Assembly: GCA_032622095.1 (NCBI GenBank)
Contig: CP136067.1
Coordinates: forward strand, 73,744,705 to 73,808,704
From: Siphonodentalium dalli
Taxonomy: Eukaryota > Mollusca > Scaphopoda > Gadilida > Siphonodentaliidae
DNA: 64,000 nt
Direction of reading: 5' to 3'
In this document: positions 1 through 45,703 of the stretch, one piece after another
Layout of the letters: each line of letters begins with the position of its first letter
How positions within the stretch are numbered: position 1 is the first letter of the stretch
Notes under the pieces: generated by a model
What the model was told of the DNA's origin: nothing
The model's input: the letters and a program-made list of their open reading frames with translations, nothing else
The model's database searches: none
Translations under genes and position numbers: made by a program

Positions 1-513
1 ATATTCTAAAGTTATATAATATAAAGATATATGATCATAAAGGTCACGTTCACCAACGTCCACGTCCATTGCCGTCGAGACTATAAATTGTTCTTTAAAC
101 ACACAGTGAAATAAATGCACCACAGTTCCTGACATTCTCTTGAATAATACACCCACATACTGACACTAACCCTGAGAGAGGATAACAACAACGCATTCCT
201 TAATTCATTCTATAAAGACATTATCCTTTAGCCCATCCGACTGTTCTGGGGAGGCTAGCATAGTATTATCCAGACAAAATTATACGTCTGGTCAAGTTGA
301 TTCAGAACGGCTTTGAAACGGATGAGGAAATACAATCTTACCACACCAAAACACCAACACGCGTGACATTTTATATCTCAAACATGCACCTGGTGTAGGG
401 TGTATACCGTGGCCCATTTCATTACGCCACATGTGGTGTATCTAGCTTCTGTGATTTTGATATTGTGTGGTGGACAGGGCGAATGTATTCTTGGAGATTG
501 TTTGTACCTTACT

Positions 514-960
514 CAATCGTACCGATAGAATCACGTAGATGCCGATATTGTAAAGTTAACGCCACCGGTGTATAATATGTTTATGAAAATATGATAAATC
601 GTATCGATAGAGTCAGGACAGGCTGAAATTGTAAACTTAAAGTCACCGGTGTAATAATATGTTGTTGAAAATATAAATAATTTGATAGACTGAAAATAAT
701 ATATAACCCATTGTGAGCCCCTGGCGTATTCTTGGACATTTTGTTTTGTACCATTACTCAATCGTACCGATAGAATCACGTAGATGCCGAAATTGTAAAG
801 TTAACGCCACCGGTGTATAATATGTTTATGAAAATATGATAAATCGTATCGATAGAGTCAGGATAGGCTGAAATTGTAAACTTAAAGTAACTTGTTTTTG
901 AAAATATAAATAATTTGATAGACTGAAAATAATGTGTAACCCATTGGGAACCACTTGAAG
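514..960. repeat. Tandem repeat, ~246-bp unit, two copies
   Basis: Two copies of a unit containing CGTACCGATAGAATCACG, CACCGGTGTA and TTTATGAAAATATGATAAAT follow each other, with an internal loss in the second. The mirror copy is at about 21,660-22,107. Short open frames here repeat with the unit and show no sign of being genes. Confidence 0.8.
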
Positions 961-1234
961 TGAGTTGTGGGTAGTTTCATTGTGATATTCTCCGCCATCT
1001 TTATTTTCTGGAATTATCACCAAGATTTCTCCATTCGATTCTCTTAAAATGCACCCGAATCGGTCAAATTCTTTTGATAATTCTATCTAAATACATCTTA
1101 GCTACTATTTGGATCTGCTGTCCCGGTCGAAAGGGGTTTAGTTTGACCAAAATGGCAATTGACAAAAGCCTGTTTATAAAATGCGTCTACTCAGTACTCG
1201 ATGACCCGTCCACGGTCTGTAGACAAGTGTAGTG

Positions 1235-1560
1235 TAAATTTATTATCGAAAACAAATTCAATTTCTTCCATCTAAAACACAAGTACGCGCTGAACTCTGT
1301 CATTTTAAGAATATATAAGTGTTACACACATACACACCAAATTTCAGCTCAAAATTTTGAAAAATGACAGTTTTATAGACATAAATCGATTTTAATGGGA
1401 AATCGAGTGTTAAATTTTATCATCGAAAAAAATCATTTCTTCGATCTAAAAAATAATTACGTGCTGTACCCTGTCATTTTAGGAATATATAAGTATCCCA
1501 CTCACACACACCAAGTGTGAGCTAAAATTTTTGAAAAATAAGAGATTTATCGACATAAAT
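1235..1560. repeat. Tandem repeat, ~170-bp unit, two copies
   Basis: Two diverged units share the order ATTATCGAAAA, TTTCTTC-ATCTAAAA, TGTCATTTTA-GAATATATAAG, TTTTGAAAAAT and GACATAAATCGAT. The mirror copy lies at about 21,060-21,385 in the right arm. Confidence 0.7.
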
Positions 1561-2682
1561 CGATTTGTATATGGCAGATGCCAATTGCCTTGTTAAATAA
1601 ATTTTAGGGCCGTGCAAATGTTTTCTGAGCTGTTCCATATTGGGCACTAGAGTCCATATTTGACCGTTATATCTGATAATTGTGCGACAGTACATTCGCG
1701 TTACTTTATACGTCAACATTGGTCATTATCACCCGACAAATTTATTTCGGCCTATCGTATCAACCCCTATTTTCTTCCGCATAGCCTGACTAAGTGTCAA
1801 CATTAGTCTTTATCGCTCCACTAATTTGTATCGTTTCATCGGTATGAATTCCATATCCAATTATCCACATATAACCAACCCAACCTCTAATCCCGCGGTC
1901 CAATTTATTTAATTTTTTCATCGCTATAGTCACGTTACTTAATATTTTATCGCGTGATACTTGTACTTATATGTCTATGGTATTACTATAGTATACCGTA
2001 TACGTATATCAATTGCTATTCCTTTCTATATAATCCTGGTGCCATCTATAGAGATAGCGATAATTTCATACCCTCCCCCCCCCCCCCATTTTATGTCATT
2101 GCTGCTTTAGTACAGTCACCATACATTACATGGCAACATCACTCCACTAATTTATGTCAGTTCATCGGTACGAACCCCCTTTTCTCCGAGTCCATATAAC
2201 GTACCAACCCAACATCTTATAGAAGTCCATAAATGACTATTCTGGCACTATATAGATATGACTAAGATTCTGACACCCCCTATTTTATAGCCTTGTTGCA
2301 ATGTTCAGTAGAGTTGAGATGCATAATATGTCAACATTGGTCATTATCGCTCTATAAATTGATATCGGTTCAACCCTTAGTTCCCTCTATCGCCCACCCC
2401 TCCCTGAATTTATTTTTTCATTTGTATTATAGTCTCGTTACGTACACATTTTATCTCTTGTAACTTTTGCTTCAATGCGTCGAGTTCCGCGGCAGAGAAT
2501 ACAAAAACTGACAACATTTTGAAATGTAAGCAGGCTTCAAACTCATCTTATCCAAGAAAAACTCTGGTTACATAAGAAATTTGTGTATAAGGTGTACGCG
2601 CATTTGTTGCGTTAAAAACCAAAGGTCCCAAGTCAAGGTCCAAATCCCCAACACACTGTTGTGAGGTTTAACTCCATCTACA

Positions 2683-3166
2683 TACAGTAATGTCGAAAGT
2701 AATTGATCACTTAACCACAGCAAAATTATGGGTATTTTTTTCATGATTTTAAATCCTGAAAAATTACCCATAATTATGCTGTGGTTAAGTGGTCAATTAC
2801 TTTGGGCATTACTGTAACCAATATAAGGATTTGAGGTTTAATGATAACTCGATCCTCATACAATAATGTTCAAAGTAATTGACCACTTAAGCACAGCAGA
2901 ATAATGGGTAATTTATCAGGATTTTAAATGCTGAAAAAATACCCATAATTCTGCTGTGGTTAAGTGGTCAATTACTTTGGGCATTACTGTAACCAATATA
3001 AGGATTTGAGGTTTAATGATAACTCAATCCTCATACAGTAATGTTCAAAGTAATTGACCACTTAACCACAGCAGAATTATTGGTAATTTTTCAGGATTTT
3101 AAATCCTGAAAAATTACCAATAAGTCTGATGTGGTTAAGTGGTCAATTACTTTGGGCATTACTGTA
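2683..3166. repeat. Three tandem ~130-bp palindromes (mariner-like MITEs)
   Basis: Three units (about 2,683-2,817, 2,859-2,991 and 3,034-3,166) are each a near-perfect palindrome. Each opens with TACAGTAATG, continues through GTAATTGACCACTTAACCAC, and returns through the reverse complement to CATTACTGTA. They are separated by ~45 bp containing AAGGATTTGAGGTTTAATG. The TA-CAGTAATG ends suggest a mariner-type MITE with TA target sites, though the spacing looks like tandem amplification rather than three insertions. The mirror array is at 19,455-19,938. Confidence 0.85.
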
Positions 3167-5149
3167 ACCAATATAAGGATGTGAGGTTTAATGAGAACTC
3201 CATCCACATAACTAATAAATATGTGTGAAAATTAAAACAAAACAAAATAAATTCCATGATGGCGTCCAATATGGACTGCCTAATTCTGCTCCAAAACATG
3301 TATATTGAATATATGGATGTTTATTGGGGGAAACCGATTATTTCAATGATATTTTCATTAACTGGGATCCAAAACCCGACTTACGGGAGCGTGCTTCGCG
3401 CGCGACTGTATCTTAAGCATATGTGCATATTTAATAAGCCAACAATTGGAATCCCAACAGAGAAGATTGGCGTGGGTCCCTTGTGCGATCTGTCCATTTT
3501 TAGACCATTTAGACATCTCAAGACACGTAAGACCCAATAACTTAATATACAGAATAGATACATCTATTGCCTGAGTGACTAATATTTATATTTGTTACAA
3601 TGAGGTCAAATAGTTGCGAAGCTAGCACCACAATTCTTTCCCTCCATAGTAAATCTTAAAACAACTTCTAAAGAATTATTAATTTACCTTATATTTGGTA
3701 TGGAGCGTCCTTGGTTTACTGGAGTTCAGATTTTTTAACATCACGTCACCAAGTTAATTACTTGCGAAGCCACAGCCATAACTATTTCCCTCCATAGTAA
3801 TTCTCAAAACAACTTCTTAAGAACAATTGACCAGGTCAGTCGCGCAATTATTGGAAGAGCCACGGTCAATCATTTAAAAAAACAAACAAATGTTACATTT
3901 AAATTATTGCTTTATTTAACCAAAAAAAAAAATTAAATGACAAAATTAACTTTTACTACTTGCTAAATTTTATCTTTTAATTATTTCATTTAAATTTTAG
4001 TATTTACAGTATACTAAGTCCAAGTCTTTATAATCTGTTGAGTGACCCCACAGTCGTTTATTTGCTTTGTTAGTAATAATTTGAAGGATTACTTGTTTAA
4101 ACGCAATTGTTATCAAAATATTTTATGTATTTTTTATAATTTCTATTTATATGTAATACTATAATCTTGGTGGCGTTACCATTTCTGACTATGGTTTTCT
4201 TGTTCTCACTGTCATGGCGCATGTCCACAAACTAGCAACGCGAGTATTGTTCTTCTCTGCTGTGAGCTATTCGACGAGACGACTGTGGGACGTCACACGA
4301 TTTGCTTAGGATCATGGTCAAAGAAGTGTGGGTAGTCGGTACATTATGGTCTTCTCCTTAGCAGATAGGCATCTGTCAAAGGGAACGAGACAGCTAGCAA
4401 CATTCGAAACACTGCCGAAGTTGTCCACGTATGCCAATACGTTCGCTAAGTTTGTGAGTTGAACCATCTATTGAGAAGGGACTAGTTAACTGGGAAGCTC
4501 GCCAGGTGTACATGTCGTTATCCCTACGGGGTATGAGAAAGACATACATAGTAGTCCAGGAGATATTGGTCGACATCTGCACCCCCCCCCAGGACTTAAC
4601 TTCACCCCACTAATTTTCTTCCTTAAGGTCTCCTCTAATTTTTTTCACTTGTTAACAAGAACAAAAAGTGGCCGCAGAGACTCCAGACAAGATGGCGTCC
4701 ATCATGGCGGCCATTTTTTTTAAATGCACCAGGTCTCTTTGATCGCCATTATAGTAAAGATGATAGCAAATGCGGTCTTGTTTTCCGCTCGATTCGTTAT
4801 GCTAATATACAAGGTGTCCGCCGAAATGTGAAAATATGCTAGTTTTCTGACATGTTACCACCTTTCGTTTGTCTCTGTGGGAAAATGTTAGAATTTTTGC
4901 ATCATGTTATACATTTATCATATAGAGGAGTCATTGGCGAACACATGGGGACCATAATATGCATTCATTGCGGGATATTTATGTCAGATATCACGTTTTC
5001 CCAAATGCCGGTATCATAGGTCAAAGCCGAATCTCCGTTAATAACGGGATGTTATATTTCAAATCAATGAATGTTATTGCTATTATAACAACACCCATGC
5101 ATATATATTTGCATGATATACTCGAGCTAGGATTCCTCTTATACCTGAG

Positions 5150-5700
5150 TGGAGGAATATTTACCCAAATCCAAGATGGCGGCCAAAATGGCCACCAGAA
5201 ATAAAAAATCGCCGAAAATCGCTGATTTTAACATCAGTGAGCATTATTGTCATGACAACTCCACACCTGCTTACTATTGTAAGTTGGGAACACTTAGGCG
5301 AAGAAATTTCCTTGTACCATATCCAAATAAAAGTCCCCCAAATCCAAAATGGCAGACAGATTTTGAAAAATTACCGAAATTCCCTCATATTAACATCATT
5401 GGGCATTATTGTCGAGACAACTCCATCCATGCGTACAGTTGAGTTGGAAATACTGAGGTGAAGTAATTACCTTACATCTCATGCAAGAAATTGTTTTCCA
5501 AATCGAAGATGGCGGCCAAAATGGCGACCGAAATTTGAAAACAAGCCTACATTCATTTACTTTCTTAGGATGGGCGTTATTGTTTCGCGATTTCTACCCA
5601 CCATTACATGTTGATATGTATGAATTATTCATTAGGGTTTGGCAAGTGATACTCCCAGTCAATATGGCGGCCAAACTGGCGGGCAGAAATTGAAAAGAAG
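5150..5700 (+). repeat. ~165-bp degenerate tandem units with ATGGCGGCC motif
   Basis: Units near 5,171, 5,345, 5,505 and 5,660 each begin with a variant of AAGATGGCGGCCAAAATGGC. They continue with a GGGC-TTATTGT segment followed by a GACAACTCCA-like segment. The same arrays, inverted or direct, occur at about 8,220-8,760, 9,960-10,500 and 17,005-17,550. The core AAGATGGCGGC matches the known YY1 consensus. Open frames of 60-139 codons across these arrays are repeat by-products. Confidence 0.75.
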
Positions 5701-7044
5701 CCGATATTATCACATACTAATTTCAACTTTTTGTCATAATATTGATTTGTATAAACAAAACGGTACATAATATAAGCCATATATTAGTTCCAATGTAAGT
5801 CGTAGCCTTTTGGAAGGATGAAAACCCACAATCGCAATGTGGCATTTCAAAATCCATTCTCCACTAAGGGCTCATACTGGCCGTAACCGTATATAGGTGC
5901 GTCGAATAGTCATATTATGACTTCCAAGAATCAAAACAACAGTACCTGAGCTTATTCTGAATTGCCACATTCAGCATTATCTAGACTCGTTTCCGTCTCT
6001 TCGTCATATTAATCTATCTCACTCACAAGAACAGTTCACTACTCTTCTTTGTACGAGTGTGCCACTAATCGCAATGTTTCAAACAATACATATGCCGGTG
6101 TCCAGCTCACGTGTTGGTTTCGAAAGCTTGGAATTCTTAGCGAGCTTCATTCGTGGTATAGCTTATGATATAATTCAGATGCTACATATGGGGTATATGC
6201 GTCATCTTGTGCGATACACTATATATAAAGGTATTCGGTCGATGCGTATACTAGCTTTCATAAGGATCTATCTGCGTATTGTCAGCTTTGGTGACCTAAT
6301 GGGGATAACAACGCCTGGTGATCTTCCCAAACAGCCACTTCTCAATATATGGTTCATCAATTGACATACTCATCTGATGCACTGACGTACCCGGACAACT
6401 TCTGTATATGGCTTCGAATGTTGAAAGCCCGACATTTGCCGGATGCAATTCTGCTAAGGCGTAGAAGACCATAATGCATAATATACCCAAACTCCTTGAA
6501 CATGATCATAAGAAAAGGCTTGTTGGCGTCCAGCAATCGTCTCACCGAACAGATCCAAGCAGATGATAACAATACACACGTTGCTAGTTTGTGGGTATGT
6601 ATCATGATAGTGGAAATGAAATTGGACCATGACTGTACCGCCCCTTATTTTGTTATGTTTTAGATTCAGACATGATCTCATGTGTGGCTTTGCTTTCCTT
6701 GTATACTAAGATTGTATGTTCCCACCCGTTTGGAAGCCGTTCTTAAACAACTGGATCAGGGGTGTGTCATTCGCTACTGCTGTATAAGCCCCACAAAGAC
6801 TGTGGTGTAGTCTTAAAGGCGATACCTTTGATAGTTGGTTGATATGTCATACTCACGCTGGGTGGTATGGTTCAAGAAAGTACAAATGCCATCAACAAAA
6901 GGGTGAAATGTTCAACGCGAAGAACATCCAGAGGAATGTTACGTTGATGAGCTGTTGCATTCAGTTCAACACACGTTGGTACACCAAGTGATTTCTTGAT
7001 AACATCACCAATGCGACCATTTTCCTGCATGAGACATTAACTAC

Positions 7045-8770
7045 TATATTCTAAAGTTATATATATAAAGCTATATGATCATAAAGGTCGCGTTCCCCAA
7101 CGGCCACAGCCATCGCCATCGAGACTGTAAATTGTTCTTTAAACACATAGTGAAATAAATGCACCACATTTCCTGACATTCTCTTGAATAATACCGCCCA
7201 CATACTGACACTAACCCCGAGAGAGGATAACAAAACACGCATACATCCATGCTATAAAGACATTATCCTTTAGTCCATCCGACTGTTTTGAGGGAGGCTA
7301 GCATATTATTATCCAGACAAAAGTGTACGTAGTTGAATCAGAAAGGCTAAACAAAACCGACACGCATGACATTCGATATCTTAAACATGCACCAGGTGTA
7401 GCGGTGGTGTATACAGTGGCCCATTTCATTCCCACTATCATGGCGCATTTCCACAAACTAGTACCGCGAGCATTGTTCTTCTCTGCTGGGAGATATTCGA
7501 CGAGACAACTGCGGGGCGTCACACAGTTTGCTTCGGATAATGGTAAAGAAGTGTGGGTAGTCTGTACACTAGGGTCTTCTCCTTAGCTGATAGACATCTG
7601 TCCAAGGGAATGAGACAGCTAGCAACCTTCGAAACACTGTCGAAGTTGTCCACATATGCCAATGCGTTCGTTGAGTGTGAGTTGACGAACTATCTATTGA
7701 GAAGTGACTAGCTAACTGGTTCGCCAGGTGTACATGTCGTTATCCCATGGGGTATGAGACACATACATAGAGATGACCTTCTGTAAGCTAGACACCGGAA
7801 AATGAATTGTTTGAAACGTTATGATTAGAGGGACCCTACTCCCAGGAAGTGGTGAATACTTTGTCGGTGTGAGCGACCTAGATTTATCAGATAAAGAAAT
7901 GGAAGCTGGTCCAGATAATTATGGACGTGACGTGGCAAATCAGAATCTGTTATCAGGTAATTGTTCTGATATAACTATTCGGCGCACCTACGCTTACGGC
8001 CATTATCGGCGCCAAGTGGAGACTGGATTTCGAAATGCCACATCGCGATATTAATTGCGGTGTTTCATCTTTCCAGAAGGACACGAGCTATGTTATGCGT
8101 TTTGATACCTTTAAGTTGAACTAGTAGATGGTTTATGTACAATTTCGTCCATACATTCCGATATTATGACAAAAAGTTGAAATTAATATGTGAAAATATC
8201 GATTTCTTTTCAATTTCTAGCCGCCAATTTACCAGCGATCTTGGCTGTGAGTATCAATTGCCAAACTCTAATGAATACTTCATGTCACTATTCCATATCA
8301 ACATGTAATGGTGGATAGAAATCGCGAAACAATAACGCCCATCCTAAGAAAGTAAAGGAATGTAGATTTGTTTTCAAATTTCGGTCGCCATTTTGGCCGC
8401 CATCTTCGATTTGGAAAACAATTTCTTGCATGAGATGTAATGTAATTACTTCACCTCCGTATTTCCAACTCAATTGTAAGCATGGGTGGAGTTGTCTCGA
8501 CAATAATGCCCAATGATGTGAATATGAGGGAATTTCGGTGTTTATTCAAAATCTGTCCGCCATTGTGGGCGCCATTTTGGATTTGGGGGACTTTTATTTG
8601 GATATGGTACAAGGAAAGTTCTTCGCCTAAGTGTTCCCAACTTACAATAGTAAGCAGGTGTGGAGTTGTCATGACAATAATGCTCACTGATGTTAAAATC
8701 AGCGATTTTCGGCGATTTTTTATTTCTGGTGGCCATTTTGGCCGCCATCTTGGATTTGGGTAAATATTCC
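7045..8770 (+). repeat. Arm-like copy inside the insertion
   Basis: From CTACTATATTCTAAAG onward this segment follows the outer arm: it matches 1-430, then 4,206-4,551, then 9,420-10,560, omitting the 3.8 kb block. It is clearly more diverged from the arms than the arms are from each other. It therefore gives an outgroup for working out what was inserted in the arms. It contains an 87-codon frame (7,323-7,586) and a 77-codon frame (7,821-8,054) that correspond to arm sequence. I cannot assign a function to either. Confidence 0.8.
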
Positions 8771-9557
8771 TCAGCTCAGGTATAAGAGGAATCCTAGCTC
8801 GAGTATATCCTGCAAATATATATGCATGGGTGTTGTTATAATAGCAATAACATTCATTGATTCGAAACATAACATCCCGTTATTAACGGAGATTCGGCTT
8901 CGACCTATGATACCGGCATTTGGGAAAACGTGATATCGGACAAAAATATCCAGCAATGAATGCATATTATGGTCCCCATGTGTTCGCCAATGACTCCTCT
9001 ATATGATAAATGTATAACATGACGCAAAAATTCTAACATTTTCCCACAGAGACAAACGAAAGGTGGTAACATGTCAGAAAAATAGCATATTTTCACATTT
9101 CGGCGGCCATCTTGGCCGCCATATTGGATTCTGGTGTCGGATTTTTGGCTAATTTGTAAGGGTTGTATATTAGCATAACGCATCGAGCGGAAACAAGACC
9201 GCATGTGCTATCATCTGTACTATAATGGCGACCAAAGAGACCTGGTGCATTTAAAACAAATGGCCTCCATGATGGACGCCATCTTGTCTGGAGTCTCTGC
9301 GGCCACTTTTTTTCTTGTTAACAAGTGAAAAAAATTAGAGGAGACCTTAAGGAAGAAAATTAGTGGGGTGAAGTTAAGTCCTGGGGGGGTGCAGAGGTCG
9401 ACCAATATCTCCTGGACTATAGAGATGACCTCCTGTAAGCTTGTATACGTATCGACCATATACCTTTCTAGTTCAAGATGGCGTACAAATCCCATATTTA
9501 GCAACAACTATTTAAAATCTTAAGCTAGACACCGGAAAATTAATTGTTTGAAACGTT

Positions 9558-9875
9558 ATGATTAGAGGGACCCTTCTCACAGGAAGTGTTGAATACTGTG
9601 TCGATCTGAGCGACCTAGATTTATCAGGCAAAGAAATGGAAACTGGTCCAGATCATTATGGACGTGGCAAATCAGAATCTGTTATCAGGTATTTGTTATC
9701 AGGTAATTGTTCTAATGTGGCTATTCGGCGCACCTACGCGCGGTTACGGCCATTATCGGAGCTAAGTGTCGAATGGATTTCGAAATGCCACATCCCGATA
9801 TTAATTGTGGGTTTTCGTACTTCCAGACGAATACGAGAAATGTTATGCGTTTTGATACGTTTTAAGTTGAACTAA
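9558..9875 (+). CDS. 105-codon arm-borne ORF, unidentified
   Basis: An open frame of 105 residues beginning MIRGTLLTGSVEYCVDLSDL is identical to the one in the right arm at 17,627-17,944 (minus). A diverged version beginning MIRGTLLPGSGEYFVGVSDL at 7,821-8,054 keeps the acidic stretch DLDLS-KEME-GPD and the LLSGNCS and IRRTYA motifs, but its C-terminal half differs and it is shorter. No known domain, signal peptide or membrane segment is seen. Conservation between the old and young copies is suggestive, but it may simply reflect shared repeat ancestry. I treat it as a possible remnant of a transposon-encoded protein, with low confidence that it is translated. Confidence 0.2.
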   Translation: MIRGTLLTGSVEYCVDLSDLDLSGKEMETGPDHYGRGKSESVIRYLLSGNCSNVAIRRTYARLRPLSELSVEWISKCHIPILIVGFRTSRRIREMLCVLIRFKLN

Positions 9876-10702
9876 TAGATTGTTTGTGTATAGTTTCGTC
9901 CATACATATCGATATTATGACAAAAACAGTTGAAATTTGTATGTCAAAATATCGATTTCTTTTCAATTTCTGGCCTCCAGCTTAGCTGCTTTCTTGACCT
10001 TGAGTATCAATTGCCAAACTCAAATGAATACTTCATATCATTATTCCATATCAACATGTAATGGTGGGTAGAATTCGCGAAAACAAATAACGCCCATCGT
10101 AAGAAAGTAAAGAAATGTAAGCGTGTTTTCAAATATCGGTCGCCATTTTGGCCACCATCTTATGTTTGGAAAACGATTTCTTGCATGGGATGTAAGGTAG
10201 TTACGTCACCACAGTATTTCCAACTCAACCGTAAATCATGGGTGGGGTTGTCTCGACAATAATGCCCAATGATGTGAATATGAGGGATTTTCGGTGATTT
10301 TTCTAAATCTGTCCGCCATTGTGGGCGCCATTTAGGATTTCGAGGATTTTTATTTGGATCTGACATAAGGACAGTTCTTCGAATCAGTGTTCCCACACAA
10401 TAGTAAGCATGTGTGGAGTTGTCGTGACGATGACGCTCTCTGATGTTAAATCAGCGATTTTTCAATTTCTGGTGGCCATTTTGGCCGCCATCTTGGATAT
10501 GGATGAATATTCCCCAACTCAGGTAAAAGATGAATCCTAGCCCGGGTATCTCCTGCACATATATACTCATGGCTAGAGTAACAAGAGGTACGCTGTCGCG
10601 TGGCATTTGAGTCGTACCTAAGTGTTAATTAACGGGACCTGGGTCTGTTTGGTGATTAGAATTAATTGAGTTGTGTACACTATTATGTGTTACTGTAAGT
10701 GG

Positions 10703-11605: not shown

Positions 11606-11609
11606 TTAA

Positions 11610-12078
11610 AGGTACTCAATCCGTAAAGAGGGTCCCCATCTCAACAGATTCCAACAACAACAATCCGATCAGAGGGTCCTATATTACTATTTCTTTGGCT
11701 TTGGGGGTAAAAAATATTTGATTCGAGTCGAGGAACCCATCAAACAAAGCTCAGAGTTATTAGATATTGATTTTTGAAATTTGTTATGTTCTCGAGATGA
11801 GTACTAATAACTGCCGTAATCTGCTCTGGATGTGTACTCCAAATCTATTCAAACAGACAAGGATGGATAACTCTAAAATCAAGTGGTAATTTTAACGCAA
11901 TTTTGACTGAGTTCTGGGCCAGATAGTATTCCCGATAATGAAAAATAATAGATTTCTAAAATCGATATCTAACAAATCTGAGCTTTGATGGGTGACTTCC
12001 TCGACTCGAATCAAATATTTTTGACCCCCGAAGCCATTGAAATAGTAATTGAGAGGAGTTTTATCGGATTGAGTACCT
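11610..12078. mobile_element. 469-bp MITE flanked by TTAA
   Basis: The ends are inverted repeats starting AGGTACTCAATCCG, and longer inverted matches (ATTCGAGTCGAGGAA against TTCCTCGACTCGAAT) lie inside. TTAA lies on both sides (11,606-11,609 and 12,079-12,082), as in piggyBac-type target duplication. A second, partial member lies at about 12,180-12,552 and a third at 50,438-50,660. It has no coding capacity, so it would depend on a transposase supplied elsewhere. Confidence 0.8.
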
Positions 12079-12179
12079 TTAAAATCCCAACGGATTTGCC
12101 ACATAGCAGTAATTTGTAAATGACTTGTGAATGTTGATTATATTCTGGTAGGGACGTATACAGGTCATCGGAGACATCG

Positions 12180-12552
12180 CTCGCAAATATTTGATTCGAG
12201 TGGACGAATCAACCCATCAAAGCTCAGTGATCAGATATCGATTTTTGAAATCTATTTTTTTTCACCACCGGTACTTTTAGTGGCCTGGCAAAAAAGTCGA
12301 CGAGAAGACGGTTTCGGACCAAATTGCGGATAAAGATGGATAAATCTAAAATCAAGTGGTAATACGGTCAAATGTCGTCATTATACGGTCGTATTTCGTT
12401 GAACACAGTGTTGATAAATAACACGTTTTGGGAAATTATTTATCATAATTGACAGCGGTTAGCAATAGTTTGTTGTAATTAATCGGTTCTGATAATTCAA
12501 GCATATATTGAAGAAATGTTGTATGGGAATCGTGTGATCAGATTTAGTACCT
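12180..12552. mobile_element. Partial copy of the AGGTACTCAATCC MITE family
   Basis: Contains the family's internal segments (AATATTTGATTCGAGT, CCCATCAAAGCTCAG, TCTAAAATCAAGTGGTAAT) and ends at 12,552 with TAGTACCT followed by TTAA. The left terminal repeat is missing or too diverged to see. Confidence 0.55.
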
Positions 12553-12556
12553 TTAA

Positions 12557-13586
12557 ATGATTGGATGCCGTATAACTAACTTTCTTTGCATCCAGGTAGA
12601 ACTGAGGTAAAATTTATTTTGATCACGGAATAAAATTAAGTTGGTTTCCATTGAGAACAAAATTTCACTTCACTACTTCGAAACTTGTTCACAAATGTCA
12701 CTATATAAAGGCCAACCCCAATTCTTGGCATCAAATTTTATACATATTAACACCCCCAACATACACACCAAACCCGCTACAGTCGGGTGAGTGTAGTATA
12801 CCATCAACTGACACTTTTATATTTAACGTAGATAAAGTTTGGAATTGATGATTTAGACAATGAATTAAAGTCAACTGAAGACTTAAACCAGTTTAAAGAG
12901 CGTGTACACGTCATATTGGAATTATATAGCCAACTGGGAGATAAAGTGAATGATATTTTCATGGGGATAGAAATTTTAAAGTTAATTTAACATCTTATTA
13001 AATTGCTCTGTTTGGATTTCATTTGCATCCAGGAAATATCTGATAAAGGTTTTATCTCTTATATATAAATGATTGCATTCATCTATGGAAGGTATTTGGA
13101 TTCTGTGTTGGAATAAGTGCAGTTCGACGCCGTTTGATGGGTTCGCCCTCTGCTTATAACATCGTGTAGAGGGCTACGAAGAAGAATCAACAAGTGCCAA
13201 ATAATGAGCCCGGTTGATAAGTTATGGCGAGGTTTTGTCGTTTTCCGGAATGTTGAATAATTATTCTTCCGTTTCGGTCGATTTCACTTTTGCATTACTC
13301 TTTACGCATTGACTGTTCATGCCTGAACCAGTTGTCAAGGGTTCCTCCGCCAAAAAGATGGCGAACGCATCTTCTCGGAATGTGTAGGTTTTAATCAAGT
13401 TATTTCTTCCAAGATACAAACAGAAAAACACATGGTTTGTTGGAATATTCTTTGAGATTACATGCCACTGATGATAATGATATGCGGCGTTAGCGTATTT
13501 ATAGATGCATATGCCTATAAATGGCTATATGATCTTCGCTATTCCTGTCGCGATCTTGCGCGATGTGTCACAGGCTCTTGGAACTT
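12557..13586. other. Palindrome spacer, no gene seen
   Basis: About 1 kb without a convincing open frame, RNA or terminal repeat. It lies beyond the C-terminal end of the 325-codon minus-strand ORF and could hold its degraded continuation, but I see no clear match. Confidence 0.4.
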
Positions 13587-13614
13587 CATACTGTCAATGT
13601 AATTAGACAGTATG
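13587..13614. promoter_or_regulatory. Short hairpin next to an ORF end
   Basis: CATACTGTC and GACAGTATG form a perfect 9-bp stem with a 10-base AT-rich loop, a few bases from the end of the minus-strand ORF. Its role is unknown. Confidence 0.35.
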
Positions 13615-13617
13615 TAT

Positions 13618-14595
13618 TCAGACTAGGCAGTACCACGACATGGCATTGCTGTTTGAATGTTGACCAGCTGTGACTTTAGGGGAAAAGGTACTAGTAACTT
13701 TGGTACGAACATGCCGCGACAAAATTGGCAATTCAATGATACCGGGGTCATCAATCCACACATTCTTCCCCATCTCAATGCGCCGCAACCAATCGGCATA
13801 AAATGTTAAGAGAGCCTTCCACTCATAAATGGTGTAATAATATGCCATTTTCTTCAGCAAGGTCATTCGACCAATGCTCTCGACATTCGTTATTCCATCG
13901 CGTGTTATTATTTCCATTTCCCCAGCCACAAATTGCTGGAAATTAAGGCTCATATACTCAACATTGGAACTCACGTACTCATATTCAAGCGTCGAGTGGG
14001 GGAAAATTTGTGGATAAATCACCCGATCGGACTGTTTTGCATTGATTCCTGACTTTGTCGCGACATTATGTGATCGACCTTGATCGAGATCAATACATGG
14101 TGAATTAAAATTAGCAGAACACTCTGCATTATTGAGATCATTAACATGCATTTCAAAATTATGGTCAAGAGTGTTCACACCCAAAGATCCAATACGTGCA
14201 GATACACGATCATTTAAATTGCCATCCTGGCGTAAATTGTCAATAGTAATGTTCTCAGAACATCGAGTACCTGCAATCCTATCTGTGTTCTTTCGGATTC
14301 CGTGCAGCTTCTGCTGTAATCGTTTCAGCTCCAACCTTTTCTCTTCCCTTCGCTGCTTCATCTCTGCTTCTGATATCGACTCCTTCATTTTCGAGATTTC
14401 AAGATCAATCTCTAAATCCTCTCCATGTACTCGATCCTCGCCAGGTACGTCCCTGTCTTCCCCACAATTTAACTCCGGATGCTCCATGTCTAACGGGCTA
14501 ATCGCACCCGATTCCATCTCGCACGTGGAATCCTCTCCCGTGTGCATTTGAAGGTATTTGACAGGTTTCCTGGATCTTAATGAGCGTTCTGACAT
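13618..14595 (-). CDS. Unidentified mobile-element protein, possibly gag-like (fossil)
   Basis: A 325-residue frame starting MSERSLRSRKPVKYLQ. An upstream ATG at 14,706 would add 37 hydrophobic residues, but the later start gives the more natural charged N-terminus. An acidic segment (~30-75) is followed by a Lys/Arg/Glu-rich coiled coil (~65-105: MKESISEAEMKQRREEKR). After a low-complexity middle comes a C-terminal folded-looking part (FQQFVAGEMEIIT, LLKKMAYYYTIYEWKALLTF, WIDDPGIIELPIL). I recall proteins of this layout, continuing into a Cys/His zinc-binding tail, from repetitive genes of molluscs and other invertebrates, and I suspect a retroelement gag-like origin. No reverse transcriptase, integrase or LTR pair accompanies it. 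It looks incomplete and is treated as a fossil. The assignment is inference only. Confidence 0.45.
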   Translation of the reverse strand: MSERSLRSRKPVKYLQMHTGEDSTCEMESGAISPLDMEHPELNCGEDRDVPGEDRVHGEDLEIDLEISKMKESISEAEMKQRREEKRLELKRLQQKLHGIRKNTDRIAGTRCSENITIDNLRQDGNLNDRVSARIGSLGVNTLDHNFEMHVNDLNNAECSANFNSPCIDLDQGRSHNVATKSGINAKQSDRVIYPQIFPHSTLEYEYVSSNVEYMSLNFQQFVAGEMEIITRDGITNVESIGRMTLLKKMAYYYTIYEWKALLTFYADWLRRIEMGKNVWIDDPGIIELPILSRHVRTKVTSTFSPKVTAGQHSNSNAMSWYCLV

Positions 14596-14752
14596 ACTAT
14601 TGCACAAATTGGCAATAAAATACTGTAGATAATGTACGAATGTCCAATATAAGAATGTCCAAACGTGGATAATAGTCAAATTGACAATGGATGTCAACAG
14701 ATTCAAGTCAAAATGTGTGGAAACTTTGTGCGTTCCCGCATAGAATCTTCAA

Positions 14753-14830
14753 GAAAGGCCGGATTATTTTTTTTAATTGGGTTGTTTTGGGGTAGCTAGC
14801 CCCGGGATTGTCGAAAGGGCCGAAGGGCCC
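14753..14830 (+). repeat. Direct repeat A flanking the 300-codon ORF
   Basis: Contains GAAAGGCCGGAT, then about 40 bases later GCTAGCCCCGGGATTGTCG followed by a GGGCCGAAGGGCCC hairpin-like run. A similar arrangement recurs in the same orientation at 15,901-15,978, so the ORF between is bracketed by direct repeats about 1.15 kb apart. Confidence 0.65.
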
Positions 14831-14835
14831 TTTCC

Positions 14836-15738
14836 TTAATCCCTCATGTTTTTGCTTTTATTAGAAATACGAGGGGGGGGGGGGGGGGGGGGAGGATAGC
14901 ATTTTTCTGTTTGGATTAGGGTTTCTTTTTTTCTCTTCTTCTTAGAGTTAGGCTTTTCTGTCGAAGATTGTGAAGATTTCAGTTGTTGTTGTTGTTGTTG
15001 TGTGTGTTGTTGGATGATATCTGCAATTCTTTGTTCTTGTTCTTTTTGAATTCGTTCTAGTTCTCTTTTTTGCTTTTGTTCTTCTCTCAGGCGTTCTTCA
15101 TCTTTTTCTCTCCATTTCTTTTCTTGTTCTTCTTTCCAATCTTCGAAAAGGTTGTTGTTGGTGCTGGTGGAGCTGGGGGACACCGGGATGTGCTGGTAAT
15201 CCGGTGTCCGAGGTGTAAAACTGTCCAGTTCCACGTCGAAACTGGCGGCAGGAACATCTGGGGTGGTATCCACGTCCCTGTCTCCGCAAGCCTCGACGAC
15301 GACAGCAGGGACCTCCGGCAGATCTACGGAATCCCTGCTAGCTGGTATTATGTCGTCAGTCTCCATGCAGGTCGAGTCGTCTGGGTGTCTCTCAGACAAC
15401 TTCGACCCGCCGGCTTTGATTCTAGACGGCTGAACCACACGGGGAGGGGCGACTGGCCGATCTACAGTCACCCCCTTCTGCTTCTTCCATTTAGCCCGTC
15501 TGGCAGCGTCCCTTCTTTTCTGTGAGGGTGTCTTTCTCTTGGGAGGCCCCTTCTTCATTGTACAGCGGGTCTTGGCGTTCCTGTTCGCAGCAGAAGATTT
15601 CTGGGTGCCAGCATCTTCTGTCCGGAATTCTACACAGAGAACCAGAGAGCCCCTGTTAACTTGGAGAGACCAACTAACAGCGTCCACTAACCGGCTTCTC
15701 TGTATAGCGGCCAACGCGGCTTCAGGGATTAGCTCCAT
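14836..15738 (-). CDS. 300-residue basic/coiled-coil protein, unidentified
   Basis: A single open frame starts MELIPEAALAAIQRSRLVDA. In order it has: an N-terminal segment (~1-45) with SWSLQVNRGSLVLCVEFRTE that looks like a small folded unit; a strongly basic stretch (~60-90: KKGPPKRKTPSQKRRDAARR), plausibly nuclear targeting or nucleic-acid binding; an acidic/Pro-rich linker; a Glu/Lys/Arg coiled coil (~200-245); a glutamine run; and a basic tail with a poly-proline run made by a poly-C/G tract at ~14,872-14,891. I recognise no enzyme motif. Proteins with a short N-terminal module followed by a KRR-type basic patch are common as hypothetical ORFs in invertebrate mobile elements, so I take it to be element-borne. 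The poly-G tract makes the C-terminus prone to length error. It lies in the same orientation as the ORF at 13,618-14,595, 241 bp apart. Confidence 0.5.
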   Translation of the reverse strand: MELIPEAALAAIQRSRLVDAVSWSLQVNRGSLVLCVEFRTEDAGTQKSSAANRNAKTRCTMKKGPPKRKTPSQKRRDAARRAKWKKQKGVTVDRPVAPPRVVQPSRIKAGGSKLSERHPDDSTCMETDDIIPASRDSVDLPEVPAVVVEACGDRDVDTTPDVPAASFDVELDSFTPRTPDYQHIPVSPSSTSTNNNLFEDWKEEQEKKWREKDEERLREEQKQKRELERIQKEQEQRIADIIQQHTQQQQQQLKSSQSSTEKPNSKKKRKKETLIQTEKCYPPPPPPPPRISNKSKNMRD

Positions 15739-15900
15739 AATCCGTCCTGAGCCTAATCCAAAACCATCTCAGTCTGGCGTCCCCACGAGGGCAGTTACAA
15801 CCGGAGTCGCGACCGCACAACTCACTCGCGTAGACGCTCTGTCAACAAGGAACTAATGGAGCCAAATAAAATCTGACTTGTTCGCTCCACTTGCTGCCAG

Positions 15901-15978
15901 AGAAAGGCCGGATGAAGAATGAGTGGTTCGGGGGGCTAGCCCGGGATTGTCGGAAGGACCGAGTGGTCAAAGGCCGGA
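15901..15978 (+). repeat. Direct repeat B flanking the 300-codon ORF
   Basis: Contains AGAAAGGCCGGATG, GGGGGCTAGCCCGGGATTG and a GGACCGAGTGGTC run, matching the order of repeat A at 14,753-14,830. It lies about 160 bp upstream of the minus-strand ORF start. AAAGGCCGGATG recurs immediately at 15,969-15,980. Confidence 0.65.
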
Positions 15979-16099
15979 TGTCGTCGTGCATGACGTTATA
16001 TACTACGCTATAGTCTGTATCTATAAAGTGAGATGTGCTCAATGCAGATTCCCTTATCCACAATTATCCTGTTTGACTAAGTCAAACAAATACAATTGT

Positions 16100-16790
16100 T
16101 ATTAGTCCAAAATTTAGGAATGTTTTTATTTTGCTTTCGAGCGTCAAATATTTTAGTTCGTAATCTCGGCATGAATGAATTTGTCAAATATCGTCTGTTT
16201 TGCGTAATTATGTCAGCTTCTGTCTCATCGTATGTCTGCCATTGTCAATTGTCGTCAGAAGTCCAGTCTTTGTATTGAAAACCTTATTGATTACTTTTTG
16301 CACAGTCTCGTCATTGTCGGTCTTTTTATATTATGGAGAAGATTGTCCTTAAGATGGCGTGTGCATAGTGTATGCGTGCTGTTTGGAAAACAAGATGTTA
16401 TGGCATTCACAAGTTACAATTCATCACCATGCAGTTCCAAATGTTACTTTATCTTGTAAAATGCCTGCTAATTTACTTGATAAATAAGATAAAAACCGAT
16501 GGTAAGATTAAAAAGTACCATCCCAATGCAACAATAAAGGTCCTAAAAGTATTGGTGGATCTGAAGTTGATTTCCTTATAATATTAGGGTTTTTAAAAAT
16601 AATAGTTGTTACATAGCAAGATGCAAGATTAAATGTTCCGTCGATACCAATTATAGATCCAGTTTCAATTGCTGATTTGAGATGTAGGATTTGTTCTTCC
16701 AAGTGACATATTACAGAAGGTGTTTTTTTGCATCAGTTGTAATTATTTCTTTAATATATTTCTCACCTACAATGTTATGCACTCACACAT
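16100..16790 (-). pseudogene. Relic of a MULE-like DDE transposase
   Basis: Read on the minus strand, an opening segment (NIVGEKYIKEIITTDAKK, ~16,730-16,785) is followed, after a frame change, by a 64-residue open frame at 16,508-16,702. This holds GSIIGIDGTFNLASCYVTT and then DPPILLGPLLLHWDGTF. Downstream, in further broken frames, come SYHRFLSYLSSKLAGILQDK and a Cys/His-containing ECHNILFSKQHAYTMH. The D-x-TF block, the glycine/proline-rich block and a later C/H region match the order in MULE-type transposases (first catalytic Asp in GIDGTFN). At least two frame changes and several stops make it non-functional. It abuts the inner edge of the right palindrome arm, so it is a candidate for the ancestral transposase of the long-inverted-repeat element. 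Confidence 0.6.
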
Positions 16791-17626
16791 CGCAGTGATT
16801 AACTTACAGTAACACATAATAGTGTACACAACTCAATTAATTCTAATCCCCAAACAGACCCAGGTCCCGTTAATTAACACTTAGGTACGACTCAAATGCC
16901 ACGCGACAGCGTACCGCTTGTTACTCTAGCCATGAGTATATATGTGCAGGAGATACCCGGGCTATGATTCATCTTTTACCTGAGTTGGGGAATATTCATC
17001 CATATCCAAGATGGCGGCCAAAATGGCCACCAGAAATTGAAAAATCGCTGATTTAACATCAGAGAGCGTCATCGTCACGACAACTCCACACATGCTTACT
17101 ATTGTGTGGGAACACTGATTCGAAGAACTGTCCTTATGTCAGATCCAAATAAAAATCCTCGAAATCCTAAATGGCGCCCACAATGGCGGACAGATTTAGA
17201 AAAATCACCGAAAATCCCTCATATTCACATCATTGGGCATTATTGTCGAGACAACCCCACCCATGATTTACGGTTGAGTTGGAAATACTGTGGTGACGTA
17301 ACTACCTTACATCCCATGCAAGAAATCGTTTTCCAAACATAAGATGGTGGCCAAAATGGCGACCGATATTTGAAAACACGCTTACATTTCTTTACTTTCT
17401 TACAATGGGCGTTATTTTTTTTCGCGAATTCTACCCACCATTACATGTTGATATGGAATAATGATATGAAGTATTCATTTGAGTTTGGCAATTGATACTC
17501 AAGGTCAAGATAGCAGCTAAGCTGGAGGCCAGAAATTGAAAAGAAATCGATATTTTGACATACAAATTTCAACTGTTTTTGTCATATTATCGATATGTAT
17601 GGACGAAACTATACACAAACAATCTA

Positions 17627-17944
17627 TTAGTTCAACTTAAAACGTATCAAAACGCATAACATTTCTCGTATTCGTCTGGAAGTACGAAAACCCACAATTA
17701 ATATCGGGATGTGGCATTTCGAAATCCATTCGACACTTAGCTCCGATAATGGCCGTAACCGCGCGTAGGTGCGCCGAATAGCCACATTAGAACAATTACC
17801 TGATAACAAATACCTGATAACAGATTCTGATTTGCCACGTCCATAATGATCTGGACCAGTTTCCATTTCTTTGCCTGATAAATCTAGGTCGCTCAGATCG
17901 ACACAGTATTCAACACTTCCTGTGAGAAGGGTCCCTCTAATCAT
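17627..17944 (-). CDS. Mirror copy of the 105-codon arm ORF
   Basis: Identical in translation to the ORF at 9,558-9,875 on the opposite strand of the palindrome. Its presence is expected from the inverted duplication, so it is not independent evidence of coding. No domain is recognised. The ORF lies ~1.1 kb inside the inner edge of the arm and has no detectable promoter or polyA signal of its own. Confidence 0.2.
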   Translation of the reverse strand: MIRGTLLTGSVEYCVDLSDLDLSGKEMETGPDHYGRGKSESVIRYLLSGNCSNVAIRRTYARLRPLSELSVEWISKCHIPILIVGFRTSRRIREMLCVLIRFKLN

Positions 17945-19454
17945 AACGTTTCAAACAATTAATTTTCCGGTGTCTAGCTTAAGATTTTAAATACTTGTTG
18001 CTAAATATGGGATTTGTACGCCATCTTGAACTAGAAAGGTATATGGTCGATACGTATACAAGCTTACAGAAGGTCATCTCTATGTATGTCTTTCTCATAC
18101 CCCGTAGGGATAACGACATGTACACCTGGCGAGCTTCCCAGTTAACTAGTCCCTTCTCAATAGATGGTTCAACTCACAAACTTAGCGAACGTATTGGCAT
18201 ACGTGGACAACTTCGGCAGTGTTTCGAATGTTGCTAGCTGTCTCGTTCCCTTTGACAGATGCCTATCTGCTAAGGAGAAGACCATAATGTACCGACTACC
18301 CACACTTCTTTGACCATGATCCTAAGCAAATCGTGTGACGTCCCACAGTCGTCTCGTCGAATAGCTCACAGCAGAGAAGAACAATACTCGCGGTGCTAGT
18401 TTGTGGACATGCGCCATGACAGTGAGAACAAGAAAACCATAGTCAGAAATGGTAACGCCACCAAGATTATAGTATTACATATAAATAGAAATTATAAAAA
18501 ATACATAAAATATTTTGATAACAATTGCGTTTAAACAAGTAATCCTTCAAATTATTACTAACAAAGCAAATAAACGACTGTGGGGTCACTCAACAGATTA
18601 TAAAGACTTGGACTTAGTATACTGTAAATACTAAAATTTAAATGAAATAATTAAAAGATAAAATTTAGCAAGTAGTAAAAGTTAATTTTGTCATTTTTTT
18701 TGGTTAAATAAAGCAATAATTTAAATGTAACATTTTTTTTTTTTTAAATGATTGACCGTGGCTCTTCCAATAATTGCGTGACTGACCTGGTCAATTGTTC
18801 TTAAGAAGTTGTTTTGAGAATTACTATGGAGGGAAATAGTTATGGCTGTGGCTTCGCAAGTAATTAACTTGGTGACGTGATGTTAACAAATCTGAACTCC
18901 AGTAAACCAAGGACGCTCCATACCAAATATAAGGTAAATTAATAATTCTTTAGAAGTTGTTTTAAGATTTACTATGGAGGGAAAGAATTGTGGTGCTAGC
19001 TTCGCAACTATTTGACCTCATTGTAACAAATATAAATATTAGTCACTCAGGCAATAGATGTATCTATTCTGTATATTAAGTTATTGGGTCTTACGTGTCT
19101 TGAGATGTCTAAATGGTCTAAAAATGGACAGATCGCACAAGGGACCCACGCCAATCTTCTCTGTTGGGATTCCAATTGTTGGCTTATTAAATATGCACAT
19201 ATGCTTAAGATACAGTCGCGCGCGAAGCACGCTCCCGTAAGTCGGGTTTTGGATCCCAGTTAATGAAAATATCATTGAAATAATCGGTTTCCCCCAATAA
19301 ACATCCATATATTCAATATACATGTTTTGGAGCAGAATTAGGCAGTCCATATTGGACGCCATCATGGAATTTATTTTGTTTTGTTTTAATTTTCACACAT
19401 ATTTATTAGTTATGTGGATGGAGTTCTCATTAAACCTCACATCCTTATATTGGT

Positions 19455-19938
19455 TACAGTAATGCCCAAAGTAATTGACCACTTAACCACATCAGACTTA
19501 TTGGTAATTTTTCAGGATTTAAAATCCTGAAAAATTACCAATAATTCTGCTGTGGTTAAGTGGTCAATTACTTTGAACATTACTGTATGAGGATTGAGTT
19601 ATCATTAAACCTCAAATCCTTATATTGGTTACAGTAATGCCCAAAGTAATTGACCACTTAACCACAGCAGAATTATGGGTATTTTTTCAGCATTTAAAAT
19701 CCTGATAAATTACCCATTATTCTGCTGTGCTTAAGTGGTCAATTACTTTGAACATTACTGTATGAGGATCGAGTTATCATTAAACCTCAAATCCTTATAT
19801 TGGTTACAGTAATGCCCAAAGTAATTGACCACTTAACCACAGCATAATTATGGGTAATTTTTCAGGATTTAAAATCATGAAAAAAATACCCATAATTTTG
19901 CTGTGGTTAAGTGATCAATTACTTTGGACATTACTGTA
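19455..19938. repeat. Mirror array of three tandem palindromes in the right arm
   Basis: Reverse-order copy of the array at 2,683-3,166 with the same three units and spacers. The small differences between units are largely preserved between arms. The array was therefore already in place when the arms were duplicated, or the arms have been homogenised since. Confidence 0.85.
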
Positions 19939-22628
19939 TGTAGATGGAGTTAAACCTCACAACAGTGTGTTGGGGATTTGGACCTTGACTTGGGACCTTT
20001 GGTTTTTAACGCAACAAATGCGCGTACACCTTATACACAAATTTCTTATGTAACCAGAGTTTTTCTTGGATAAGATGAGTTCGAAGCCTGCTTACATTTC
20101 AAAATGTTGTCAGTTTTTGTATTCTCTGCAGCGGAACTCGACGCATTGAAGCAAAAGTTACAAGAGATAAAATGTGTACGTAACGAGACTATAATACAAA
20201 TGAAAAAATAAATTCAGGGAGGGGTGGGCGATAGAGGGAACTAAGGGTTGAACCGATATCAATTTATAGAGCGATAATGACCAATGTTGACATATTATGC
20301 ATCTCAACTCTACTGAACATTGCAACAAGGCTATAAAATAGGGGGTGTCAGAATCTTAGTCATATCTATATAGTGCCAGAATAGTCATTTATGGACTTCT
20401 ATAAGATGTTGGGTTGGTACGTTATATGGACTCGGAGAAAAAGGGGTTCGTACCGATGAACTGACATAAATTAGTGGAGTGATGTTGCCATGTAATGTAT
20501 GGCGACTGTACTAAAGCAGCAATGACATAAAATGGGGGGGGGGGGAGGGTATGAAATCATCGCTATCTCTATAGATGGCACCAGGATTATATAGAAAGGA
20601 ATAGCAATTGATATACGTATACGGTATACTATAGTAATACCATAGACATATAAGTACAAGTATCACGCGATAAAATATTAAGTAACGTGACTATAGCGAT
20701 GAAAAAATTAAATAAATTGGACCGCGGGATTAGAGGTTGGGTTGGTTATATGTGGATAATTGGATATGGAATTCATACCGATGAAACGATACAAATTAGT
20801 GGAGCGATAAAGACTAATGTTGACACTTAGTCAGGCTATGCGGAAGAAAATAGGGGTTGATACGATAGGCCGAAATAAATTTGTCCGGTGATAATGACCA
20901 ATGTTGACGTATAAAGTAACGCGAATGTACTGTCGCACAATTATCAGATATAACGGTCAAATATGGACTCTAGTGCCCAATATGGAACAGCTCAGAAAAC
21001 ATTTGCACGGCCCTAAAATTTATTTAACAAGGCAATTGGCATCTGCCATATACAAATCGAATTATGTCGATAAATCTCTTATTTTTCAAAATTTTTAGCT
21101 CACACTTGGTGTGTGTGAGTGGGATACTTATATATTCCTAAAATGACAGGGTACAGCACGTAATTATTTTTTAGATCGAAGAAATGATTTTTTTCGATGA
21201 TAAAATTTAACACTCGATTTCCCATTAAAATCGATTTATGTCTATAAAACTGTCATTTTTCAAAATTTTGAGCTGAAATTTGGTGTGTATGTGTGTAATA
21301 CTTATATATTCTTAAAATGACAGAGTTCAGCGCGTACTTGTGTTTTAGATGGAAGAAATTGAATTTGTTTTCGATAATAAATTTACACTACACTTGTCTA
21401 CAGACCGTGGACGGGTCATCGAGTACTGAGTAGACGCATTTTATAAACAGGCTTTTGTCAATTGCCATTTTGGTCAAACTAAACCCCTTTCGACCGGGAC
21501 AGCAGATCCAAATAGTAGCTAAGATGTATTTAGATAGAATTATCAAAAGAATTTGACCGATTCGGGTGCATTTTAAGAGAATCGAATGGAGAAATCTTGG
21601 TGATAATTCCAGAAAATAAAGATGGCGGAGAATATCACAATGAAACTACCCACAATTCACTTCAAGGGGTTCCCAATGGGTTACACATTATTTTCAGTCT
21701 ATCAAATTATTTATATTTTCAAAAACAAGTTACTTTAAGTTTACAATTTCAGCCTATCCGGACTCTATCGATACGATTTATCATATTTTCATAAACATAT
21801 TATACACCGGTGGCGTTAACTTTACAATTTCGGCATCTACGTGATTCTATCGGTACGATTGAGTAATGGTACAAAACAAAATGTCCAAGAATACGCCAGG
21901 GGCTCACAATGGGTTATATATTATTTTCAGTCTATCAAATTATTTATATTTTCAACAACATATTATTACACCGGTGACTTTAAGTTTACAATTTCAGCCT
22001 GTCCTGACTCTATCGATACGATTTATCATATTTTCATAAACATATTATACACCGGTGGCGTTAACTTTACAATATCGGCATCTACGTGATTCTATCGGTA
22101 CGATTGAGTAAGGTACAAACAATCTCCAAGAATACATTCGCCCTGTCCACCACACAATATCAAAATCACAGAAGCTAGATACACCACATGTGGCGTAATG
22201 AAATGGGCCACGGTATACACCCTACACCAGGTGCATGTTTGAGATATAAAATGTCACGCGTGTTGGTGTTTTGGTGTGGTAAGATTGTATTTCCTCATCC
22301 GTTTCAAAGCCGTTCTGAATCAACTTGACCAGACGTATAATTTTGTCTGGATAATACTATGCTAGCCTCCCCAGAACAGTCGGATGGGCTAAAGGATAAT
22401 GTCTTTATAGAATGAATTAAGGAATGCGTTGTTGTTATCCTCTCTCAGGGTTAGTGTCAGTATGTGGGTGTATTATTCAAGAGAATGTCAGGAACTGTGG
22501 TGCATTTATTTCACTGTGTGTTTAAAGAACAATTTATAGTCTCGACGGCAATGGACGTGGACGTTGGTGAACGTGACCTTTATGATCATATATCTTTATA
22601 TTATATAACTTTAGAATATAGTAGTTAA

Positions 22629-41917: not shown

Positions 41918-42610
41918 GTTTTTTTGGCCGAATGATCCTAAAATGACTCATTCCCATCTACATGTAAATGTCAACATTCATTACAAATTTTATGATGATC
42001 AGACAAACAGTACGGCCTGTAGCCCGCGCAAATGGATTTAATTTTGAAATCCAAGATGGCCACCAGCGGCCATGTTTTTTGGCCGAATGACCCCAAGATG
42101 ACTCGTTCCCATCTACATGTCAATGTCAACTTTCATGACAAATTTCATAAAGATCAGACCAAAGATACGACCTGTAGCCCGAGCCAAAGTATTTAGTGAT
42201 GCAAAGAGTAAAATCCAAGATGGCTGACGGCGGCCATGTTTTTTGCCCAAATGACCCCAAAATGACTCATTCCCATCTAGAGGTCGCCCCGATGATCCAT
42301 ATGAAGTTTGGTGATGTTCGGATCAGAGATGTGGTCTGTATGATGTGTCAAAGGATTTAGTGATGCAAAGAGTAAAATCCAAGATGGCCACAAGCGCCAT
42401 GTTTTTTGGCCGAATGACCCCAAAATGACTCATTCCCATCTACATGTCAATGTCAACATTCATGACAAATTCCATAAAGATCAGACCAAAGATACGACAG
42501 GTAGCCCGCACCAAAGGAAATTGTTGACGGACGCACACACGCATGCACACACAGACAACAGATGCCAACCCATGGCAATAGCTCAAACTTACAAAGTAAG
42601 TTGAGCTAAA

Positions 42611-45699: not shown

Positions 45700-45703
45700 T
45701 TAA

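Follow-up and report, generated by a model that had tools for sequence, protein, structure and literature searches.

We describe a palindrome of about 22 kb at the left end of a 64,000-nucleotide stretch of the genome of the scaphopod Siphonodentalium dalli (contig CP136067.1, positions 73,744,705 to 73,808,704; hereafter the window, with positions counted from its first base). The size of the palindrome is unusual, but its most likely source is a local rearrangement, not the movement of a giant transposable element. The explanation that we favour, and hold with about even confidence, is a local inverted segmental duplication of transposon-rich DNA, followed by insertion of a foldback element into the left arm. 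The outline of the locus is as follows.

1–4551, plus strand: left arm, outer part; 99.36% identical to the reverse complement of 18080–22619; goes on beyond the window, at least 12 bp being absent by comparison with the nested copy.
9423–10700, plus strand: left arm, inner part, ending ...TTACTGTAAGT; 99.3% identical to the reverse complement of 16802–18083; mismatches at 10701 and 10702.
10701–16801, no strand: spacer of 6.1 kb; its two 800-bp ends are not alike.
16802–22619, minus strand: right arm, delimited by the arm alignments; homology of the nested copy reaches 22631.
424–4202, mirrored at about 18429–22196, no strand: 3.78 kb insertion in both arms; without counterpart in either half of the nested relative; 2-nt junction overlap TT.

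Comparison of the window with itself confirmed the inverted arms (1–4551 against 22619–18080; 9419–10700 against 18083–16802). In a global alignment of the common 5.8 kb, for which the left-arm pieces were joined across the 4.87 kb insertion and taken to 10705, the 5823 aligned columns contained 29 substitutions (99.50% identity, 11 of the 29 being transitions) and three small indels, located in C- or A-rich tracts. The first 859 bases showed no differences. Most substitutions (27) lay at or before 10700, and the other two fell at 10701 and 10702, directly past the last shared bases; the inner arm end was therefore placed at 10700. Both inner arm junctions were clean. The likeness of the two 5.8 kb stretches is far beyond chance. 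An initial annotation of the window, made by eye, had reported arms of this length with an identity in the high 90s, a 6.1 kb spacer between them and the same nested repeats in mirror order, and the alignments bear it out on all of this: the left-arm tandem arrays at 515–885, 1231–1566 and 2669–3210 recur mirrored in the right arm at 21735–22109, 21054–21389 and 19411–19952. The candidate end sequences of the arm are TTACTGTAAGT on the inner side (10573–10700) and ACATTAACTACT on the outer side (22600–22640). The arms contained no open reading frame (ORF) of at least 150 aa, and host genes in them were not otherwise searched. The 175-bp tandem units at 2669–3210 and 19411–19952 also matched each other inverted (133 bp, 89%), so that an imperfect inverted repeat is present within each unit; one unit also includes, at 3077–3123, a perfect inverted repeat of 23 bp centred on a single base.

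The left arm carries an extra 4.87 kb, which is a separate palindromic transposon, inserted as a unit.

4552–9419, no strand: nested element, palindromic and foldback-like, confined to the left arm; ends TAGTCCAGG and CCTGGACTA; inverted halves; empty site in the right arm.
4549–4551 (ATAG, 4548–4551, if 4 bp), no strand: target duplication TAG, left copy, by comparison with the right-arm empty site near 18080–18083.
9420–9422, no strand: target duplication TAG, right copy, by the same comparison.
5095–6835, minus strand: nested left half, a more diverged homologue of the arm, inverted; 70.9% identity over 5095–6612, resuming at 6615 to about 6835 beyond the missing 3.78 kb.
7034–8829, plus strand: nested right half, homologous to the main arm (1–423, 4203–4551 and 9521–10572) minus the 3.78 kb.

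Under the most symmetrical reading, with a 3-bp TAG duplication, the element is 4868 bp long; a duplication of 2–4 bp is possible. The right arm has the empty site ACATACATAGAGATGACC, and the left arm reads ACATACATAG, followed by the element (TAGTCCAGG ... CCTGGACT) and then by ATAGAGATGACC. From the TAG duplication and the empty site it follows that the element moved as a unit. Long inverted repeats form most of it (4553–6110 against 9418–7783, 83%). When its halves were compared in 150-bp steps, identity was 94–100% in the outer 1.05 kb and 72–85% in the inner part, which suggests that the outer part was homogenised by conversion or recombination. The middle is short, as the left half could be traced to about 6835 and the right half begins at 7034. 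The missing end of the left half (6836–7023) scored 12 and 14 against two candidates, values matched by 53 and 24 of 200 shuffles. Within the inverted repeats are diverged internal tandem repeats (8195–8587 against 8359–8760, offset about 164 bp, 68.6%), which were not called by TRF. An exact 18-mer of the terminus was found in eight viral contigs, and none of the eight loci showed further similarity to window positions 1–23000 at an E-value of 1e-4.

The nested element is homologous to the arms and, as the order of the shared blocks shows, is a diverged relative with reversed polarity: the arm side that corresponds to its proven termini is the one facing the spacer. Its right half matched the arm in three blocks, 7034–7430 (81.0%), 7429–7789 (87.6%) and 7784–8829 (84.7%), with counterparts at the outer end of the arm (1–423), at 4203–4551 and a little more, and at 9521–10572, respectively. 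The path from the nested centre to the proven terminus thus parallels the main arm from its outer end toward the spacer. Since the nested termini are on the spacer side, the arms lack the terminus-outward polarity of this foldback-type family, for which we coined the label F. In the only relative whose ends are proven here, the arm side earlier read as a transposon end is consequently the internal one. The arms look like truncated foldback-element halves with a 3.8 kb insertion, duplicated in inverted orientation, and not like the ends of a 22 kb transposon. The last 590 bp of the nested element, including TAGTCCAGG, had no counterpart where the arms meet the spacer: against the last 128 bp of the arm, 178 of 200 shuffles scored as high, and against the arm end plus spacer the counts were 35 and 128 of 200 for the two sides. 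Within the last 200 bp of the arm, only the 88 bp farthest from the spacer matched the nested element (score 48, shuffle maximum 24).

The 3.78 kb insertion, which carries tandem arrays of 82, 174 and 175 bp, sits between the first two of the homology blocks. The nested right half lacks it at 7429/7430 and the nested left half between 6612 and 6615. Because the insertion is present in both arms and in neither nested half, it is most simply older than the duplication, and since the nested element occupies one arm and the other retains an empty site, that element was inserted after the duplication. The nested copy also served as an outgroup for six arm differences in the homologous blocks: it shared the left-arm state at three sites and the right-arm state at two, and had a gap at the sixth. 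By this measure both arms have changed (left at two sites, right at three, with one gap), as in two copies evolving side by side.

These observations can be arranged in a tentative sequence of events. Half of an F-type foldback element would first have been invaded by the 3.78 kb insertion. An inverted copy of the invaded half would then have been placed at a distance of 6.1 kb, so that two arms, which today differ by 0.5%, came to flank a spacer that was not duplicated. The last event would have been the transposition of the 4.87 kb palindrome, a complete related member of family F, into the left arm, where it generated a short TAG duplication. The inverted duplication itself may have arisen through break repair or replication template switching at fold-back-prone DNA, and not by movement of the entire unit as a transposon. 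Routes by which duplications form at terminal inverted repeat (TIR) elements in animals include, according to PMC8277862, fork switching and gap filling. Rearrangements are frequent in the window, which also contains two other inverted-repeat structures and a tandem duplication of 1.3 kb.

The initial annotation had set the outer boundary of the palindrome at 1/22,620, which proved to be the edge of the window: the arm match reaches window base 1. The nested copy (7034–7430) matched the right arm up to 22631, its first 18 bases being identical, so the repeat extends at least 12 bases to the left of the window. Past this point, the next 470 bp of the right flank (from 22632) scored 17 against the inverted nested centre, a value matched by 8 of 200 shuffles and borderline at most. 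From 22641, the inverted score was 17 (9 of 200) and the direct score 14 (63 of 200), and homology is not claimed; if real, the similarity would speak against a wholly sharp edge at 22631. For a window start placed at random along the 5.8 kb arm, we estimate the chance of a shared edge only 12 bp away at about 12 in 5,800. As such a coincidence is unlikely, the distance suggests that the window start is a contig edge at a repeat boundary.

The two 800-bp ends of the spacer scored no better against each other than 199 of 200 shuffles in inverted and 195 of 200 in direct orientation. The spacer contains the following open stretches.

13618–14706, minus strand: ORF P0001, 362 aa; a coiled-coil-like stretch by eye; no Pfam assignment.
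14836–15738, minus strand: ORF P0002, 300 aa; basic and Q/E-rich stretches; no Pfam assignment.
16511–16732, minus strand: open stretch of 74 aa; 0 Pfam families at E-values up to 5.

A third ORF of 151 aa lies opposite P0002. Neither P0001 nor P0002 matched a Pfam family at an E-value of 0.1, and in slightly longer frames, with E-values up to 5, they gave one and five matches, respectively, all under the curated cut-offs. P0001 may be gag-like. Its structure model was poor (mean predicted local distance difference test score, pLDDT, 42.4), and a search of PDB returned one chain at an E-value of 0.41, which is not meaningful. The idea that P0001 and P0002 are paralogues was not supported (E-value 0.065). 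The two ORFs noted in the initial annotation are thus present. Its transposase relic, which may be the stretch at 16511–16732, found no backing in Pfam; this stretch may resemble a DDE/MULE core. The viral_contigs collection yielded no confirmed relative of this stretch, of P0001 or of the reverse transcriptase of the window. The Pfam searches covered five ORFs and 6 of the 333 stop-to-stop stretches of at least 55 aa, so coding relics elsewhere in the arms are possible. The window contained no transfer RNA gene detectable by ARAGORN with bacterial settings and no Rfam match at the gathering score.

Several facts weigh against an inverted segmental duplication. The related copy ends at the same base as the arm (7034 = 22631), 12 bp outside the window start, and this shared edge looks like a true element end or repeat boundary, which fits a mobile unit too. 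Moreover, two alleles would give the same divergence pattern and the same one-sided insertion. The palindrome could accordingly be an assembly artefact, in which two haplotypes that differ in the presence of the 4.87 kb element were joined head to head at a contig end. We consider this unlikely. In its favour, the palindrome extends to window base 1, which lies 12 bp from a repeat boundary and is thus a place where contigs would tend to break, and the presence or absence of one transposon together with 0.5% divergence is what two alleles could show. Large presence/absence stretches between haplotypes are common in the mussel, a bivalve, for which PMC7653742 reports abundant hemizygous regions. 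The same paper gives a mean heterozygosity of 1.73%, above the 0.5% arm divergence, although this may not be the value of the host. The clean inner junctions also argue against a join, and a simple hairpin read would have neither a 6.1 kb spacer nor such a set of substitutions.

The initial annotation had suggested a possible giant long-TIR element with the arms as transposon ends and the spacer as cargo. Of this idea, the involvement of foldback-type DNA holds, as the arms are related to a 4.87 kb palindromic element with a target duplication; the roles assigned to arms and spacer are not supported, since the outer end was the window edge, the proven termini of the relative are on the spacer-facing side and the spacer has no confirmed transposase. 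An amended version, with ends at about 22631 and at the mirror position 12 bp left of the window, and with the spacer as cargo or a decayed coding core, strikes us as rather improbable. The best point in its favour is that right arm and nested copy cease to be homologous at 22631/7034, as would be expected of an element end, and this shared end could be a true one; the flank beyond it is at most borderline in its similarity to the nested centre, and the spacer has two long ORFs on one strand. Set against this are a polarity opposite to that of the sole relative whose ends are proven, a left end and any target duplication that fall outside the window, the lack of a profile-supported transposase in the stretches searched, and a unit of about 22.6 kb that includes the 4.87 kb later insertion. 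A related proposal is a composite mobile unit of about 22 kb, in which 6 kb of coding DNA would be mobilised by two inside-out foldback halves (about 5.8 kb each) whose working ends lie at 22631 and at the mirror position. In that case the nested F element is an inside-out derivative of the same system, and each side of one repeat has at some time acted as a transposon end. We regard this scenario as very improbable. Finally, two foldback-type elements in inverted orientation may have reversed termini facing each other around ordinary DNA, the whole being made or mobilised by alternative (reversed-ends) transposition. The arm polarity does set the F-terminus side toward the spacer, and in maize, as reported in PMC4270019, segmental duplications arise by alternative transposition of nearby termini. 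However, at the spacer edge the final 590 bp of F, with the TAGTCCAGG terminus, are absent from the arms, and no functional terminus was seen there; to the right of the arm (22641–64000), neither element was continued by a second half, and the matches numbered only 10, all of them short or weak (45–261 bp). We judge such an origin distinctly improbable.

In plan, the nested element is similar to the Tetris foldback of Drosophila virilis, described in PMC4079207: in both, the long inverted repeats consist of an outer part, a region of diverged internal tandem repeats and an inner part, the middle is short, and no transposase was recognised. The tandem repeats are offset by about 164 bp in the nested element and form 220 bp units in Tetris, and the target duplications are 3 bp (2–4) and 8–10 bp, respectively. 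Mutator-like elements with long TIRs, as presented in PMC3310237, share the long inverted repeats. The nested element differs from them in that the stretches searched matched no transposase and that its target duplication falls short of the 8–10 bp named as a Mutator clue in PMC4079207. Membership in a Mutator or Tetris-type group was rejected on account of the 2–4 bp duplication.

At the scale of the whole locus, Ising's TE (a composite between foldback copies) and Teratorn, as introduced in PMC6431247, also have unique DNA next to or between long inverted repeats. Unlike them, the locus has no confirmed transposase or proven outer ends, and there is no evidence that it moved as a unit. Amplicon-type palindromes kept by gene conversion, such as those of the human Y chromosome, resemble it in their large inverted arms with >99% identity and their spacer. 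They differ in that much of the arm described here is mobile-element DNA and encodes no long ORF. Among the papers listed by the literature searches, no title or abstract opening told of such a palindrome in a mollusc, and the main text of a bivalve transposon paper (PMC10294476) contained neither "palindrom" nor "foldback".

Other repeats were observed in the remainder of the window. A second inverted-repeat structure at 57854–62644 has arms at 57854–58415/62644–62084 (97%) and 59005–59576/62089–61520 (91.5%); its ends are TCACCATATC, its inner part contains tandem repeats of 42 bp, and a target duplication is not obvious. One of its arms contains an element of about 590 bp (58410–59008) with ends TTAAAGGGGTACTGTAC, inserted at a TTAA-like site; the corresponding site in the other arm is unoccupied, and a copy of this element with 88% identity lies at about 45700–46290. 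A third inverted repeat (46594–47783) has 262 bp arms with 95% identity and GTCTGRCAAATGTG ends. The 1.3 kb tandem duplication (27940–30530, 99.8% identity) is presumably very recent. A reverse transcriptase at 54879–56454 matched RVT_1 with E-values of 2.9e-25 (55258–56454) and, in an overlapping, differently framed stretch (54879–55286), of 1.1e-8, and looks frameshifted. The arrays at 37307–38389 and 41920–42518 consist of related units of about 160 bp with AAGATGGCC-type motifs and are 94% alike over 573 bp. In style, the tandem repeats of 150–170 bp would fit a bivalve or other mollusc.

Should the palindrome prove to be an assembly join, it is a warning against taking contig-edge palindromes for elements where a genome is highly heterozygous. 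A foldback whose target duplication is a 3-bp TAG would join the exceptions to the view, stated in PMC4079207, that most foldbacks belong to the Mutator superfamily. If the palindrome is real, the nested copy provides an outgroup for polarising arm mutations and looking for conversion, and the locus would document in order how large palindromes are seeded by foldback DNA, from an old insertion through an inverted duplication to the recent arrival of a foldback element in one arm.

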